From an uncultured Pelagibacteraceae bacterium (GTDB lineage Bacteria > Pseudomonadota > Alphaproteobacteria > Pelagibacterales > Pelagibacteraceae), in assembly GCA_902579105.1 (NCBI GenBank), contig CACHFM010000002.1, forward strand, positions 62,001 to 126,000: 64,000 bases of DNA, in the 5' to 3' direction. The notes beneath the pieces are model-generated. The model searched no databases. It saw nothing but the letters and a program-made list of their open reading frames with translations, and had not been told where the DNA came from. A program made the translations under genes and the position numbers. This document shows positions 9,261-17,475 of the stretch, in pieces (position 1 is the stretch's first letter; each line of letters begins with the position of its first letter).

Positions 9261-9893
9261 ATGCCATCAGAAAAAGATGGAGTGATGATAGTTTTATCCT
9301 CTCCTTCTGGAGCTGGTAAAACAACATTAGCAAGTATGTTATCTAAATTAGATAACTTTAAAGTTTCAATTTCTCATACTACTCGTCAACCAAGACTTTC
9401 AGAGACAAACGAAAAGGATTATTATTTCGTAAATGAAACTGAATTTAAGAGATTAATCAAAAATGAAGAGTTTCTTGAATACGCAAAAGTTTTTAATAAT
9501 TATTATGGAACAACAAGAACTCCAGTTATCAATGAGCTAGATAATGGAAAAAATGTTTTATTTGATATTGATTGGCAAGGCGCAGATCAAATAAAAAATA
9601 AAAGATTAGATTATAAATTAATAACTTTTTTTATACTACCACCCAGTAAAGAAGTTTTATTCAAAAGACTTTCCAATAGACACATGAAAGATAAATTGAT
9701 CGTTGAAGAGAGAATGAAACAGTTTGGAAGAGATGTATTACATTGGATAAATTATGATTATGTAATAATAAATGATAACCTAGAAAATTGTTATTTAAAA
9801 ATATTCAATTTAATTGAAGCAGAAATAAATAATGGCTCAAAAGATTATGATGTTGAATATGTTAGAAATCATGTTGAAAAATTAATTTCTTAA
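9261..9893 (+). CDS. gmk: Guanylate kinase
   Basis: 210 aa. Phosphorylates GMP to GDP. The P-loop [11 protein letters not shown] lies at about residues 13-23, followed by the GMP-binding signature with SHTTRQPR and YYFV, and [13 protein letters not shown]. Starts 8 bases after acpP. Its 3' end overlaps the convergent rsmA by 12 bases, leaving no room for a separate terminator. Confidence 0.96.
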
Positions 9894-10667
9894 ATTTTCA
9901 TAAATTTTTGTTAGTTCATAATAGGTATTAAAATCTAAGTTTTGAGGTCTTAAGTTAAGATCAATTTTTAATTTATGTAAAATTTTTTGATCATCATTAA
10001 AAAGTTGATTAAAAGGTTTTTTTATCATTTTTCTACGGTGATTAAAAAAAATCCTTGTAATTTTTTCTAAGTTTTTAGGGTTATTAATTTTTTCGAAATT
10101 TTTTTTGGGGGTAAAAAATAATAAAGTACTATCTATTTTTGGTTTAGGCGAAAAAGCTTCAGGCTTGATATCAAAAATTTTTTTAATATTTAGTTTCCAA
10201 TTTGCTAGAATTGATAATCTTCCATAAGTTGATGTATTAAAATCTGAAATAATTCTATCAGCAACTTCTTTTTGAAACATCAGTATAAGATAATCAAACC
10301 AAAAATTATTATCTAAATTAAGTATCCATTTACTTAAAATTTCAGTTGATATATTGTAAGGCAAGTTTCCAAATACAATTACATTTTCCTCAAATAAGCG
10401 GTTTTCGTCCACTTTTAAAATGTCGTCATTAATAATTATTATTTGGTTTTTAAAATTATTATTTAAATTAGATGCTAAAGATTTATCTTTTTCGATGACA
10501 ATTAATTTCTTTGGATTTTTTTTAAGAATATAAGAAGTTAAATTTCCTGTGCCAGGTCCAATTTCCAAAATATTTTTATTTTTAATTGGAATTATATTGG
10601 TAATTTCTTCTAAAATTTTTTTGTCGATTAGAAAATTTTGTCCTAGACTTTTTTTTGCTTTAATCAA
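9882..10667 (-). CDS. rsmA: 16S rRNA (adenine1518/1519-N6)-dimethyltransferase
   Basis: 261 aa (also called ksgA). Dimethylates two adjacent adenosines near the 3' end of 16S rRNA. Motifs: [16 protein letters not shown] at the N-terminus, the SAM-binding [12 protein letters not shown], and the catalytic motif [12 protein letters not shown]. The C-terminal domain has the usual [12 protein letters not shown]. Start codon overlaps the pdxA stop by 4 bases. Last gene of the leftward lptF-to-rsmA run. Confidence 0.96.
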
Positions 10668-11629
10668 TTTTTATCCATGAATGTAATAGCATTTACTAGA
10701 CTTAAAGGATTAGAAATATTTTTTCCTAACATTTTAATATTAGGCCCATGATCAGGCGATATTCTGATAAAAGGCAAACCTAAGGTAATATTTATTGCAT
10801 CATATTCATATATTGTTTTTAAAGGAGTTAGAACTTGGTCATGATACATTCCAACAATTACATCAAATTTTTTTCTATTATTTTTTAAAAAAATTGTATC
10901 AGCTGGATATGGACCTGAAACTTTGTATTTTAACTTAGTTAAATGTTTAATTGCAGGTTTTAAAATTTTTTCATCTTCATTGAATTTGTTAATACTTTCA
11001 CAGTGAGGGTTAAGGCCCAAAACAGCAATTTTTGGTTTAAAATTCCTGTATTTTTTGTAAAAATTATTAATTAATTGAATTTTTTCATAAAGTTTTTTTT
11101 TAGTAATTTTTTTTGCAACCATTTTTAAAGGAAGATGAGTTGTGACAGGACAAACAGATAATTTTTTATTATAAATTAACATAGCATTTTTTTTAGAATT
11201 AGTTTTTTTTGCAAGATATTCAGTGATACCAAGGTATTTTTTGTTCAAAAAATTTTTTTTGGAAATTGGTCCATTAATCAATTTACTACTTGTACCAAGT
11301 TTTATAAGTTTGAGAGCTTTATCAAATGATTTTTTAATATATAAATTTGATTTATTAGAAATTTTTTCAAATGCTTGTCTTGGATTATATTCAATATCTA
11401 TAAGATTAATATAGTTATTATTCAACTTATAATTATTAATACTTTTATAGTTTATCAATCTTATATCCATTCTAAATTTTAGTTTTTTCATTTGAAGTTT
11501 TAATAATTTTAAAGATGAAATTAAAATTATTGGGCTTTTGTATTTTTTATATTTTAAAGATTTAAAAAAAATTTCTAAAAAAATACTATTAGGTTCTCCA
11601 TTAATAATTATTATTGGTTTATTTTTCAT
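10664..11629 (-). CDS. pdxA: 4-hydroxythreonine-4-phosphate dehydrogenase (pyridoxal phosphate synthesis)
   Basis: 321 aa. Oxidises 4-hydroxythreonine phosphate in the DXP-dependent vitamin B6 pathway. Family motifs visible are TTHLPLKMV, LGLNPHCE, VGMYHDQVLTPLKT and the C-terminal RISPDHGPN; the three His residues in these motifs are the expected metal ligands. It is the usual surA-pdxA-rsmA order. Overlaps the surA 3' end by 11 bases. Confidence 0.93.
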   Translation of the reverse strand: MKNKPIIIINGEPNSIFLEIFFKSLKYKKYKSPIILISSLKLLKLQMKKLKFRMDIRLINYKSINNYKLNNNYINLIDIEYNPRQAFEKISNKSNLYIKKSFDKALKLIKLGTSSKLINGPISKKNFLNKKYLGITEYLAKKTNSKKNAMLIYNKKLSVCPVTTHLPLKMVAKKITKKKLYEKIQLINNFYKKYRNFKPKIAVLGLNPHCESINKFNEDEKILKPAIKHLTKLKYKVSGPYPADTIFLKNNRKKFDVIVGMYHDQVLTPLKTIYEYDAINITLGLPFIRISPDHGPNIKMLGKNISNPLSLVNAITFMDKN

Positions 11630-12560
11630 TAATTATGACATCTTTTTTTATTTTCTTAAAATATATGTTTGAATATTGATTAAGTTGTTGATTTTGTAAT
11701 GATCTTATTCTTAAGGTTAATTCTTTATCAATATCAATTTTTTTTTCAATTTCTTTTATATCTTTAACGCTTAATATTAAAAAGCCTCCTGGTATTAATA
11801 TTGGATTAGTATATTGCCCAATTTTAAGTTTTGATATTTCTGTTAATATTTTTTTATTTACAGAATTTTCATCAATCCAACCTAATTTACCTCCTGTTTT
11901 TGAAGTAGCAGAAATACTAAATATAGATGCTGTATTTTCAAAGCCTTGATCAGATATACTTTTTTTAATTTCGTTAAAAAGTTCTTTAGCTTTAATATTT
12001 TCATCAGCACTATATACAATTTCATAAAGAAGATATGAGTTTGATTTTATTTTGTTTAATTTAATTTCATTTCTTAGTTTTTCTTTATCAATATTTAATT
12101 TAGAAAAAAATTTTTTATAAATTAATTGGTTCCAAATAGCTTCATTTGTAAGCTTTTTTTTAATTGTTAAAAAATTAATATTAAGAGAACTTAAATAATT
12201 AAGAAATTCCTCTTTATCTTTAAGTCCAATATTAGTGTAAATTGATTTAATTATATTATCAAAATATTTTTCATTAATTTCGTTTTGATTATATTTTGAT
12301 ATTTCTATTTCTTTAATTTTTTCTCTAATTAATGAAGTTTTTGCAACTTCAAGTATTTTATTTTCATCTAAAGTTTTTAAATTTGGATTTAACGCTTTTA
12401 GATATTTTGCCTCATTATAGATATCAATATTTGTAATAATTTTATTATTAACTTTTAAAATTATTTTATTTTCAATTGATAAAACTTTTGAGTTAAAAAA
12501 AATAATTAAAATAAATAAAAAAAATAAATTTTTAATTGAATTTATTGATTTATTATTCAT
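11619..12560 (-). CDS. surA: SurA-like periplasmic peptidyl-prolyl isomerase/chaperone
   Basis: 313 aa. An N-terminal signal segment (about residues 10-27) is followed by a SurA N-terminal-like chaperone domain (KVNNKIITNIDIYNEAKYL) and a single parvulin-type domain near the end (SKTGGKLGWIDENSVNK, then LKIGQYTNPILIPGGFLILSV). E. coli SurA has two parvulin domains in about 428 aa; this one is shorter with one. It should help fold outer-membrane beta-barrels such as LptD, whose gene lies immediately upstream (7-base gap). Confidence 0.85.
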   Translation of the reverse strand: MNNKSINSIKNLFFLFILIIFFNSKVLSIENKIILKVNNKIITNIDIYNEAKYLKALNPNLKTLDENKILEVAKTSLIREKIKEIEISKYNQNEINEKYFDNIIKSIYTNIGLKDKEEFLNYLSSLNINFLTIKKKLTNEAIWNQLIYKKFFSKLNIDKEKLRNEIKLNKIKSNSYLLYEIVYSADENIKAKELFNEIKKSISDQGFENTASIFSISATSKTGGKLGWIDENSVNKKILTEISKLKIGQYTNPILIPGGFLILSVKDIKEIEKKIDIDKELTLRIRSLQNQQLNQYSNIYFKKIKKDVIINEK

Positions 12561-12567
12561 TAATGAT

Positions 12568-15273
12568 TTATTTTACCGATTGCTCAATTGATGTTAAAGG
12601 GTAGAAATTTATAGTAAACATCAATTTCTCTGAAGGTTTTAAATCTCTATCTTCATAATATGTTTTATTAAATCTAATACCTGCTGTTAGGCAATCATTT
12701 TTGTATTCATAAATTAAGTCATAATACTCTGTTAGATTAACTTCTCTATTTCTTCTTGTTTTAAAAGAAAGTGAATTTTCTTCATTAAAATTATATTTAC
12801 TAATATTTTCAAAAACGTTGGTATTTCCTAAATCTGAATCTTCTTCAATAAAATTAAAATTTGTTACAAAATTGTTTAATGATAAACCAAGTCCAATTGA
12901 ATTTTTTTCAAAATTTTGAATTTTATTATCAATTGAAAAATTATAATTTAAATTTAGAAATTCAAATACTCTGTAATCAACTTCTCCAAATAAGTTTGAG
13001 TTTTTTTTATTTAAAGTGGTTTGTGAAGGTATGTTGCTTTCAATGTCATCTCTAAATACTGAGGCTAATTTTATTTCTAAATAATTATCTTCATTTTCTT
13101 TTTTGTAGTCAATTCCAAGCGTTAAAGAGCTTCCAGATTCAAAGCTATCATCTAATCCAAGTCTATTTATATCAAAAATATTATTCATATTTATTTCTCT
13201 TTCACTGCTAGAATGGTCTTTCATATCGCCAGGATTAAATCGTAGTGATAATCTTGGTATTAAAAATTGACTGTTTGTCTCTGTTATTTTGATTAAAGGT
13301 AATTCAGAATTTAGCTCGATTAATGATTGTAATTCAATTTGTGGACTCGATTTATAATCAGTTACATTTTTGCCAACGCTATTTAAATTTTTCAAAAATA
13401 TATTCAAATTATTTTTTAAACCTAAGTTATGAAAAATTTTTTCATTTGTTCTAAAACTAATATCATTAATAATCCTAGATTTAAGATTATTAGTATTATC
13501 TAGGATATTATTACCTTTTGAATTCAAACCAATGTTTCCATAATTTGTTGATATTAAATTATTAGAATAATTATAGTAAGGTAAAATATATTGATATCGA
13601 TCACTTTGTTTTTTTGTCAAATCTTCATATACATCAGTTCCACCAGAAAATAAAAAATTTTCATGTTCTAAAAAAAAATCAAATCCAGAATTCAAAATAT
13701 CGTTATTTTTTGGTTTGATAATACTTTCTGATAAGTTATCACCAAATATTTTTAAATAAGTATCTTTATTTGTTCTTTCAAAAAATATATTTAAGTCACT
13801 TTTAATGAAGTTATCTAATTTAAGATTTTTTTCCAACCTAGCAAAAAAATGATTGATATTTTTCTTTTGATTAGTAGTTGAAGATTTATAACCACTAGTA
13901 ATACCAAAGTCTGCAATTATTGATGAATTTTCATTTTTTTGTCTAAATTCAGTTTGAATCATTTTAACATCATCTGAAAATAAAACTGGGCTAAAAGTTA
14001 AATCTTTATTTTTTGAAATTGCGTAGAAGTAAGGCACACTTATAGAGGATCCTAAAATATTAGAGTTGTTAAGTTTTGGTTGTAAAAAACCTGATTGTCT
14101 TTTTACCGTTGGATCTGGATGAAAGAATTTAGGAAAATAAAACACTGGAATATCATAAACTTTTAAAATTGCATCATTATAAATTAGTTGTTTTTTATTT
14201 TTATCATGTTTAATTTGAGATGCTTCCATTCTCCACGGTGGGCAGCTATCCGTTTTTTTACAACTTGTAAAAACAGCTTTTTTAACTGAAGTTATGTTGT
14301 CTTTTTTAGTAGAAGATACTCCATATAATCTTGGATCATTTTCAGGTCTATCAAAAAGATTTTTTTTTAATTTTATTTTTGTATTACCAGCTTTGAAATT
14401 TTTATTTTTTAAATTAAAAAAACCATTTGAAAAGTAGAGTTTATCACTTTTTCCTATAGGTAAACTCGAATTTTCAATAATTGATATCTCAGTACCTTTT
14501 AAAAATTCTTTTTTTATTTCATAATCAAAACTTCCAAGTTCATAAGTTGAAAAATTATCATCATTTATAATTGTTTTGTTAGAAGAATATAATTTCATTT
14601 CATCTATAAGAAAAGTTACATCTTTTGAGTAAAATTTGTATTTTGAAGCGATATATGCTTCAGTTTTTCCTTCTGAATATACTTTATATAAATTTTTGAG
14701 ATAGATGATTTTATCTGTATTAATAGTAATATCTTTATTTCTATCTTTTAATTGAACATTGCCGTTTGCAACTACTTTTTCTTCATTTTTTAAATATGAA
14801 ATTTCATTAGCATTAATATTAATATCTTTATTTTTATCTACTAACCGGACATCACCATTTGCAAATACATGTTCTTTACTTTTTAAATATGAAATTTGCT
14901 CAGTATTAATAATAATATTTTTACTTTTATCTTCTAACCGAACATTACCATTTGCAATTATATTTTCTTCATTTTTTAAATATGAAATTTTATCAGCATT
15001 AATTATAATATTTTTTTTCTTGTCTACTAGTTGAACATTTTTTGTTGCGATTAAAATATTAGTAATTTTATTATATTCAAAGTTTTCTGCTATTATAGAA
15101 ACCCCATCATTTGTAAATGCCTCTCCTCCATCGTAACCTTTAAATAAATTTCCGTCTTGCGTAATTTGTATTTCAGTTACATTAAAACTAAATATATCTT
15201 TAGAGTTTAAATTTGAAGTAAAAAACAAATTGATCAAGATATAGATAGAAATATATATAAATTTATTTTTCAT
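12568..15273 (-). CDS. lptD: LPS-assembly protein LptD (outer-membrane barrel)
   Basis: 901 aa. Inserts lipopolysaccharide into the outer leaflet of the outer membrane. After a signal peptide (about residues 1-24), residues 56-205 form the OstA/LptA-like beta-jellyroll region, here built of near-identical 31-residue repeats. The central conserved block TSCKKTDSCPPWRMEA followed by VYDIPVFYFPKFFHPDPT and RQSGFLQP is diagnostic. The last 500 residues are barrel strands. No LptE is adjacent. It sits between surA and lptG in the same operon, with its start overlapping the end of lptG by 11 bases. Confidence 0.93.
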   Translation of the reverse strand: MKNKFIYISIYILINLFFTSNLNSKDIFSFNVTEIQITQDGNLFKGYDGGEAFTNDGVSIIAENFEYNKITNILIATKNVQLVDKKKNIIINADKISYLKNEENIIANGNVRLEDKSKNIIINTEQISYLKSKEHVFANGDVRLVDKNKDININANEISYLKNEEKVVANGNVQLKDRNKDITINTDKIIYLKNLYKVYSEGKTEAYIASKYKFYSKDVTFLIDEMKLYSSNKTIINDDNFSTYELGSFDYEIKKEFLKGTEISIIENSSLPIGKSDKLYFSNGFFNLKNKNFKAGNTKIKLKKNLFDRPENDPRLYGVSSTKKDNITSVKKAVFTSCKKTDSCPPWRMEASQIKHDKNKKQLIYNDAILKVYDIPVFYFPKFFHPDPTVKRQSGFLQPKLNNSNILGSSISVPYFYAISKNKDLTFSPVLFSDDVKMIQTEFRQKNENSSIIADFGITSGYKSSTTNQKKNINHFFARLEKNLKLDNFIKSDLNIFFERTNKDTYLKIFGDNLSESIIKPKNNDILNSGFDFFLEHENFLFSGGTDVYEDLTKKQSDRYQYILPYYNYSNNLISTNYGNIGLNSKGNNILDNTNNLKSRIINDISFRTNEKIFHNLGLKNNLNIFLKNLNSVGKNVTDYKSSPQIELQSLIELNSELPLIKITETNSQFLIPRLSLRFNPGDMKDHSSSEREINMNNIFDINRLGLDDSFESGSSLTLGIDYKKENEDNYLEIKLASVFRDDIESNIPSQTTLNKKNSNLFGEVDYRVFEFLNLNYNFSIDNKIQNFEKNSIGLGLSLNNFVTNFNFIEEDSDLGNTNVFENISKYNFNEENSLSFKTRRNREVNLTEYYDLIYEYKNDCLTAGIRFNKTYYEDRDLKPSEKLMFTINFYPLTSIEQSVK
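14755..15033 (-). repeat. Three in-frame 93-bp tandem repeats inside lptD
   Basis: The unit starts recur at 15033, 14940 and 14847 (minus strand), exactly 93 bp apart, coding 31 residues each (about residues 81-173). The repeat core is I-x-YLK-x5-x-ANG-V-L-D-K-K/D-I-x-IN. More diverged units flank both ends (from about residue 50 and up to about 204). Conserved nucleotide stretches at equal phase, such as the CCATTTGCAA-like segments, argue for recent duplication by slippage or unequal exchange. Confidence 0.9.
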
Positions 15274-16336
15274 TAATTTTATAAGTCATTAAGAGTATTA
15301 TTAAAGTTAAAAATAATAAAGGCAACCATACTGAAAGAATGAAATGAATTTTTTCAGTTGCACCAAGAACGTTGAACAGATTATTTAAATAATAAATAAT
15401 TACACATAAAAATAAACCAATTGATATTTTTAAAGTATTGCTTTTAAACTTTTTACTATTTAACATTATAAGACTCGAGAATATAGTCATAAGAACTAAA
15501 TAAATAGGATAAGAGACTATTTTTTGAATCTGAATGTTCACATCTATGGTAGATAAATTTAATAAATCATAATTTTTTTTTAATTCTATTAATCCTAAAA
15601 AAGATAGAGATGATAAATTAGAAAATAATCCTTGAATTCTTTCATAATCAAAATTTGAAGAAATTTCTATCTGCTTTCTTTTTTCATTAGTATTTTGAAT
15701 AAAAATTTCTGGTTTAATTATAATCCAGTTGTTTGTTTTAATATCAATTTTTTGACTTTTGATATTTCTTATAACATTATAGTCCTTATCAAACTCAGTA
15801 ATGAAATTATCAACTAGATAATGCTCGTCAATTTTTGAAGAATTAATTATTAAAACTTTGTTATCAATTTTATCTCTTATCCAGAGTCCATTTTTGTTAA
15901 TTACTGCAAGATATTTTCCATCAGTAGTATAACTAGATTTTAGTTCTAAATAAAAGTTTTTTAAACTTGATGATGTATTATAAAATATACTAATTATAGA
16001 TAAACCAAGCAGCAAAGTAACCAAACTAATTATTATTTGTATTTTAGAATTCTTTAATCCAGAATATTTAAAAATTTGAATTTCATTATTATTAAATAAT
16101 TTAATATAAAATAATTGTGTAGATAATAAGAAAATGAAAGGAAAAATTTCAAAAATCATTGAAGGTGAGTTAAGCAAAGATAAATAAATTGGATAAAAAA
16201 TACTTATATTAATATCTTTAAAAAATTCTAGTTCTGTTAAAAGATTAATTATAAATACTAAACAAAATATTATTAGCATTACATAAAAAAAAGATTTTAA
16301 AAAAATATTAATAAGAAATTTAATATATGTTTTCAT
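15263..16336 (-). CDS. lptG: LPS export ABC transporter permease LptG
   Basis: 357 aa YjgP/YjgQ-family permease. Three N-terminal membrane segments and three C-terminal ones flank a periplasmic beta-jellyroll domain (about residues 130-255), the architecture of LptF/LptG. With LptF and LptB it extracts lipopolysaccharide from the inner membrane. lptB is not in the window. Translation is coupled to lptF (4-base overlap). LptF versus LptG is assigned by order: the second permease is normally LptG. Confidence 0.88.
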   Translation of the reverse strand: MKTYIKFLINIFLKSFFYVMLIIFCLVFIINLLTELEFFKDINISIFYPIYLSLLNSPSMIFEIFPFIFLLSTQLFYIKLFNNNEIQIFKYSGLKNSKIQIIISLVTLLLGLSIISIFYNTSSSLKNFYLELKSSYTTDGKYLAVINKNGLWIRDKIDNKVLIINSSKIDEHYLVDNFITEFDKDYNVIRNIKSQKIDIKTNNWIIIKPEIFIQNTNEKRKQIEISSNFDYERIQGLFSNLSSLSFLGLIELKKNYDLLNLSTIDVNIQIQKIVSYPIYLVLMTIFSSLIMLNSKKFKSNTLKISIGLFLCVIIYYLNNLFNVLGATEKIHFILSVWLPLLFLTLIILLMTYKINEK

Positions 16337-17475
16337 TTTAAAATTTTATTGAAATTAAATTTAAATCGAAAGTAAAAATATAAAAAAATTGTGCTAATGA
16401 TAGGTATTAAAATTATAACTAAATTATTGTAAAAATAATTATTTACAAATCTTAATGTCGATTCTGAAAATACAATTAAAAAAAATCCTAAAAGAAAAAC
16501 GATTAACCTATATTTTGAATAATTTATTTTTTCTTTAGAATGAACAATCAATAATAGTGCAAGAAGCATTAGAGCCGGTATGTACAATGGTATAACCAAT
16601 CTTTTATATAATTCAGCTGTTATATTAGTTAAATTTTTCATTTCACAATTTCTAACTCTTTCTTTAATTTTAATTTTATCTTTAATATTTTTGTCAGTTA
16701 AATTGATTAAACAATCAATGAGTTCTAAGGTTGTATGTTCTTGAGTTTTTGTAACTAGAATTGTATTAGTTGAAAATAAAGATAAATTAAATTCAGATTT
16801 TGAAAAACTAAAATTTGTTATTTTTTCATTAAATAAATTTGTATTTTCACCATTATATAATTCTAGAATCGCAACACCATTATTACTTTTAAAAATACCT
16901 TTTTTAGCATAAGTTATTTGAAAGTTATTTTCATCTGTATTTTTTTTTATATATATATTATTAAAATTACCATTTTCATCTTTACTTTCAGTATAGATTG
17001 TTAAATCATTTACAGCTGCATTAAATTTTTTAATTTTAATAAAATTATCAACAAAATTATAGTTAGATGTTCTGATAATTGTTCTTGCCATACTTTGTGA
17101 TTTTGGAACGATATATGCAGTTAAAATGATTTGAACTAGAAATATAAAAAGAGAAAATGATAAAAAAAAATTAACAAAAGAAATTTTATTAATTCCAAAA
17201 TTCCAATATATTAATAATTCATTTTTTATTTCATACTTAGCAATTACATATGAAAAACTAAAAAAAAATGCAAAGGGTAGTATTTTACTTACAATTTTTG
17301 GAAAATTTAATATTGCATAATTTAAATATACATCGTAACCACGACCATCATCAATTATTATATCTAGATAATTAACCGCTTGAATAACCCAAATAATAAT
17401 ACTTGTACTTATCAAGGCTATAAGGAAAAAAATTAAACAATCGGTTAAAAATTTTCTATATAGAATTTTTTTCAT
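16333..17475 (-). CDS. lptF: LPS export ABC transporter permease LptF
   Basis: 380 aa YjgP/YjgQ-family permease. Membrane segments at about residues 13-33, 60-78 and 103-123 precede the periplasmic domain; three more follow at about 290-310, 323-340 and 350-372. It heads the leftward LPS/outer-membrane operon and is divergent from pepA. The C-terminal half shows LYKRLVIPLYIPALMLLAL, a typical segment of the permease core. Confidence 0.88.
   Translation of the reverse strand: MKKILYRKFLTDCLIFFLIALISTSIIIWVIQAVNYLDIIIDDGRGYDVYLNYAILNFPKIVSKILPFAFFFSFSYVIAKYEIKNELLIYWNFGINKISFVNFFLSFSLFIFLVQIILTAYIVPKSQSMARTIIRTSNYNFVDNFIKIKKFNAAVNDLTIYTESKDENGNFNNIYIKKNTDENNFQITYAKKGIFKSNNGVAILELYNGENTNLFNEKITNFSFSKSEFNLSLFSTNTILVTKTQEHTTLELIDCLINLTDKNIKDKIKIKERVRNCEMKNLTNITAELYKRLVIPLYIPALMLLALLLIVHSKEKINYSKYRLIVFLLGFFLIVFSESTLRFVNNYFYNNLVIILIPIISTIFLYFYFRFKFNFNKILK

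Follow-up and report, generated by a model that had tools for sequence, protein, structure and literature searches.

The question raised by this locus is why the N-terminal arm of an LptD, the outer-membrane protein of lipopolysaccharide (LPS) assembly, should be built in part of near-identical 93-bp tandem units, and what a change in their number would mean for the bridge that carries LPS to the outer membrane. The jellyrolls of LptF, LptC, LptA and LptD are joined at their edges to form a single lipid A groove (PMC6164715). The DNA analysed here (the window) is a stretch of 64,000 nucleotides from an uncultured Pelagibacteraceae (SAR11) bacterium, with a G+C content of 26.5%.

The lptD gene and its surroundings

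The lptD gene lies on the minus strand at 12568–15273 and encodes 901 residues. The barrel places the protein in the LptD family: NCBIfam PRK03761 matches at 7.6e-20 over the start of the domain, a match that stays under the 683 bits set as the curated cut-off for the whole protein. LptD sequences from the PDB match at 7.6e-11, and a Foldseek comparison of the full-length model with LptDE structures gives E-values down to 1.8e-30 and TMt up to 0.74 (full-length entries). The LptDs of E. coli, Klebsiella and Pseudomonas (5iv9, 8h1s, 4q35) have the same barrel and the same kind of N-terminal jellyroll. A signal peptide occupies residues 1–24 (15202–15273, minus strand), judged from the sequence and from a modelled helix at residues 4–19 with low pLDDT at 19–25. 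It is followed by the periplasmic beta-jellyroll, residues 25–318 (14320–15201, minus), and by the barrel, residues 319–901 (12571–14319, minus), which is delimited by the strand pattern of the model. Pfam LptD_N scores 13.8 bits on this protein, under its cut-off of 20.4, and reaches the cut-off in the whole-genome search; both LptD_N and NCBIfam LptA are too weak for counting units in such AT-rich sequences.

Two LptF/LptG-family permeases are encoded upstream on the same strand, at 15263–16336 (PF03739, 2.6e-35) and 16333–17475 (PF03739, 5.8e-40). Downstream, 11619–12560 (minus) encodes a SurA-like periplasmic peptidyl-prolyl isomerase (PF00639, 7.9e-10), which is probably surA to judge from its position and domain. 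Also on the minus strand, an intact ksgA/rsmA-like frame of 262 residues at 9882–10670 has no ATG near its start, and ATG-only calling recovers just its last 132 residues.

A tandem array in the N-terminal arm

The highest-scoring tandem array of the window, detected by Tandem Repeats Finder, lies at 14708–15029 and has a period of 93, 3.5 copies, 81% matches and no indels; its score is 399, against 71 for the next-best array. A chance origin was ruled out, since the top 84-bp self-match has 73 identities and 500 codon shuffles of this region reach 55 at most (mean 47). In the protein, the array resolves into three recent in-frame units covering residues 86–178 (14740–15018, minus strand). Unit 2 comprises residues 86–116 (14926–15018), with strands at 89–99 and 104–115; unit 3 comprises residues 117–147 (14833–14925), with strands at 120–130 and 135–146; and unit 4 comprises residues 148–178 (14740–14832), with strands at 151–161 and 166–177. 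Units 2 and 3 are identical at 79/93 bases and 20/31 residues, units 3 and 4 at 72/93 and 17/31, and units 2 and 4 at 78/93 and 20/31. The array is flanked by two diverged units, which follow the same pattern but are older. Unit 1 (residues 55–85; 15019–15111, minus) is identical to unit 2 at 51/93 bases, and unit 5 (residues 179–209; 14647–14739, minus) to unit 4 at 58/93.

A preliminary description of the locus had reported an exact 93-bp phase of at least three highly identical units between diverged flanks. The phase, the number and the flanks are borne out, yet no copy is exact, and the high identity amounts to 77–85% in DNA and 55–65% in protein. The interval it gave, 14755–15033, does cover three units but runs 15 bp out of the protein phase.

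The arm as one modelled jellyroll

The full-length AlphaFold model, built on 70 Pelagibacteraceae LptDs, has a pLDDT of 88.3 that rises above 90 over the array, and in it each unit contributes two beta-strands to an unbroken run. Modelled alone, the arm is predicted to form one continuous jellyroll (pLDDT 93.7, pTM 0.87). It is of the OstA/LptA type and matches structures of both LptA and LptC. Stretches of about 130 residues superpose by Foldseek on LptA 2r1a with TMt 0.80–0.81 and rmsd 1.9–2.6 Å; the fold is common to LptA (2r1a, 2r19) and these parts of the arm. The placement of the units in the LPS-receiving jellyroll of LptD, and the continuity of that jellyroll through the array, as the preliminary description had supposed, both agree with the models. 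The repeat units belong to LptD and not to a free-standing, single-jellyroll LptA.

Each unit would add one rung to a single open-ended jellyroll, so that the length of the arm can change without breaking the fold. Beta-strands are generally spaced 4.7–4.8 Å apart, and by this general figure, which is not a measurement on the model, a two-strand unit would add some 9–10 Å.

Age of the units

Synonymous divergence (dS) between the units of the window is 0.12 (units 2 and 3), 0.26 (3 and 4) and 0.23 (2 and 4). For the window gene and its nearest relative, L134, dS amounts to 0.86 over the barrel and to 0.51 over the units. Since the inter-unit values lie below these, units 2–4 are younger than the split from L134, and the duplication is recent, as had been proposed. 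A rival reading takes the units for an ancient OstA-like structural repeat: a jellyroll is intrinsically repetitive, and the same pattern occurs weakly in units 1 and 5 and in the proteins with the shortest arms (+0, below). The reading is true for units 1 and 5. It is false for units 2–4, where the low dS and the near-perfect DNA copies seen in several relatives speak against it, and as an account of the array it is very improbable.

The duplication was also thought to have lengthened the arm, and this is not borne out by comparison with close kin. Five of the six near relatives (L134, L002, L003, L033 and L004) carry five units, just as the window gene does, and L032 carries four. Recent events in this clade consequently replaced units and added no length. 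Such replacement at fixed number is a pattern of concerted evolution and not of net growth. Units 3 and 4 of L134 are identical to each other at 92/93 bases, unlike those of the window; L134 has homogenised its own units independently of the window gene. The units of L002, L003, L033 and L004 are well diverged from each other. Between the units of the window, nonsynonymous divergence (dN) is much the same as dS, a sign that the choice of residues within a rung may be only weakly constrained.

Unit numbers across the Pelagibacteraceae

For 155 distinct Pelagibacteraceae LptDs, N-terminal length was taken as the distance to a conserved motif where the barrel begins, with the best-scoring domain as anchor. 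It moves in steps of about 31 residues, from 0 to +6 units. There are 89 proteins in class +0, 4 in +1, 40 in +2, 12 in +3, 7 in +4, 2 in +5 and 1 in +6; a few lie between steps, and the counts are not unbiased, loci having been picked partly for long frames. The window gene is a +3 member in which units 2–4 were recently duplicated or homogenised. The standard deviation of length is 43 residues in the N-terminal part and 16 in the barrel. On a tree of 131 barrels, built from the part of LptD after residue 316, a minimum of 24 changes is required to explain the unit numbers, gain and loss not being distinguished. Sister species can differ (L014 has +4 and L017 +6; L162 has +0 and L164 +2); the genome collections hold one genome per species, so the unit counts compare species.

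Exact or near-exact duplications of one unit (93 bp) were found in L114, L078, L134 and L101, with nearly four almost perfect copies in L114 and L078, and duplications of two units (180 bp) in L157, L154 and L014. Both kinds recur in separate lineages. Among the best repeats, two-unit steps (180–186 bp) outnumber one-unit steps by 28 to 8, and even unit numbers are commoner than odd ones.

Tandem repeats are prone to misassembly, and most of the relatives are represented by draft assemblies from single cells or metagenomes. Nevertheless, that assembly produced the array is hardly credible: the units of the window differ at 14–21 of 93 bases, the array lies inside a 134-kb contig, and the +6 form is present in a one-contig genome (G035).

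Apparent absence of LptA

LptA, which takes LPS across the space separating the two membranes, is regarded as an essential and conserved Lpt component and is a drug target (thanatin). In the genome of the window, on contig C1 (L175, 1471–2042), lptC ends at 2040 and lptB starts at 2042, behind kdsD. The order kdsD-lptC-lptB with no gene between was seen in every Pelagibacteraceae LptC locus examined, across several genera; in these loci lptA is not found between lptC and lptB, and the slot is closed. All 15 loci of the sister family, which belongs to the same order, read kdsD-lptC-lptA-lptB, with an LptA of about 149 residues, and one of the LptA frames from these loci reaches the curated LptA cut-off. 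A profile was made from the alignment of the sister family's LptA and run against 142 Pelagibacteraceae genomes that are at least 90% complete. It found no free-standing LptA; its matches are frames of LptD and LptC size, plus one frame of 378 residues in G234. The outcome with TIGR03002 is the same for 53 Pelagibacteraceae genomes; in the sister family, where it scores even true LptA near its cut-off, this model detects LptA in 23 of 25 genomes. A 119-residue match to the LptA profile in G146 is LptC cut at a contig end and was rejected as LptA. The 378-residue frame in G234 (C1, 278640–278822; 7.2e-5) is possibly a broken or divergent LptD; the LptD match of that genome is weak.

On these sequence searches the Pelagibacteraceae appear to lack LptA. 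Alternatively, LptA may be present and have escaped the searches through strong divergence or an unusual position, the long arm of LptD being an addition to it. The near-cut-off scores of TIGR03002 in the sister family would allow this, as would weak matches such as the G234 frame and a 276-residue frame in G005 (E 0.11). However, no locus has a gap between lptC and lptB that could hold the gene, and in 142 genomes the profile made from the nearest family with LptA returns only LptD, LptC and the single G234 frame, so we regard a hidden LptA as improbable. With LptA apparently absent, the longer bridge that had been proposed from the repeats takes on a different meaning.

Arm length compared with LptA-bearing relatives

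The conserved motif used for the length measurements lies at residues 123–130 in the LptDs of the sister family, mostly at 104–187 in other Alphaproteobacteria, and at 185–401 (median 222) in the Pelagibacteraceae. The arm of the window LptD has about 290 residues, whereas the anchor of LptA-bearing relatives is near residue 125. Even the shortest Pelagibacteraceae arms are 60–100 residues longer than those of the sister family. In rungs, the excess comes to about two to three at the least and reaches about nine in the +6 form. A fusion of lptA to lptD was considered and ruled out. The first 105 or so residues of the arm match the arm of the sister family's LptD at 1.4e-13 and LptA at 2.6e-6, which argues for an expansion of LptD's own arm.

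The link between loss of LptA and the long arm is one evolutionary contrast, that between the Pelagibacteraceae and their sister family. Five other alphaproteobacterial genomes (G783, G787, G789, G795 and G796) are without a clear match to a free-standing LptA, and their LptD arms are of more or less the usual length. They do not support the idea that a long arm regularly follows from loss of LptA, and the two are not linked generally.

A proposed bridge without LptA

We think it probable, by a modest measure, from the sequences and models above, that the expanded jellyroll of LptD does the job of LptA in the Pelagibacteraceae and changes its length by duplication of units. The parts of the bridge would then be LptB2FG together with LptC at the inner membrane, and LptD at the outer one. 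Tandem 31-residue units of strand, turn and strand, each encoded by 93 bp, would extend the N-terminal jellyroll of LptD. With no LptA, the arm of LptD would be the only partner left for the edge of LptC; the extended arm would reach LptC directly, and LptD would supply its own receiving domain together with the groove that LptA provides elsewhere. In-frame duplication, deletion and conversion between units would alter the length of the arm and leave the fold intact. The repeats, the ladder of unit numbers and its recurrence, the lptA-less slot and the longer arm are read from sequence, and the continuous jellyroll from the model. Direct contact of LptC with LptD, movement of LPS over the extra rungs and any function of arm length are inferred. 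On the grounds of its fold, its length and the absence of LptA, the arm is a putative LptA analogue that would bind LPS and join LptC to LptD. The broader proposal is more tentative: the SAR11 bridge may be a two-part LptC-LptD structure without LptA, whose rungs, added and deleted by tandem duplication, make it a genetically adjustable envelope spacer.

Neutral turnover would explain the repeats without any function of length. Extra rungs would be tolerated, AT-rich units would slip or convert, and loss of LptA would be a separate event of streamlining. The near equality of dN and dS between the units of the window fits weak constraint on added units and counts against the bridge, and the frequent changes in unit number, even between the sister species named above, agree with neutrality too. 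However, large variation is confined to the N-terminal domain, the frame and the unit boundaries are kept, and the shortest arms still exceed those of the sister family by 60–100 residues, as if a minimum length were under constraint. The relation of dN to dS thus favours tolerated turnover, and the minimum arm length shared by all members favours constraint; taken whole, neutral turnover is unlikely, though the strongest of the rival explanations. A further point against the bridge is the spread from 0 to +6 units: envelope widths would have to differ greatly, or surplus length be tolerated.

Expansion of LptD is not the only modular way to lengthen an LPS bridge. LptA does so by head-to-tail oligomers (PMC6164715), whereas the repeat of the window is covalent, within one polypeptide, and part of LptD. 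Other Alphaproteobacteria have long LptA-like frames; those with two TIGR03002 matches measure 277–444 residues, and the frames of G774, G785, G790, G794, G758, G782 and G754 measure 277–392, most of them with two consecutive LptA matches. Such double-length LptA suggests another route, which would lengthen the bridge in one chain; there the extension lies in a retained LptA and is made of whole-domain units, while in the Pelagibacteraceae it lies in LptD and is made of 31-residue rungs. The LptD of Borrelia burgdorferi (BB0838) has a long predicted beta-taco domain, residues 76–293; in contrast to the Pelagibacteraceae as proposed here, this organism keeps LptA (BB0465) and is without LPS, and its LptD is not known to carry tandem units such as those of the window LptD (PMC10353723). 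In open-access papers we found neither the ladder nor the loss of LptA described, nor any that treats LptD in Pelagibacter.

Our study suggests that the preferred reading, an LptD arm in the place of LptA, would carry meaning beyond this locus. A family very abundant in the ocean and apparently without LptA would mean that a continuous jellyroll is all the bridge requires, whichever protein provides it. Its ladder of unit numbers offers natural length variants of one essential machine, so that the matching of bridge length to the width of the periplasm becomes directly testable.
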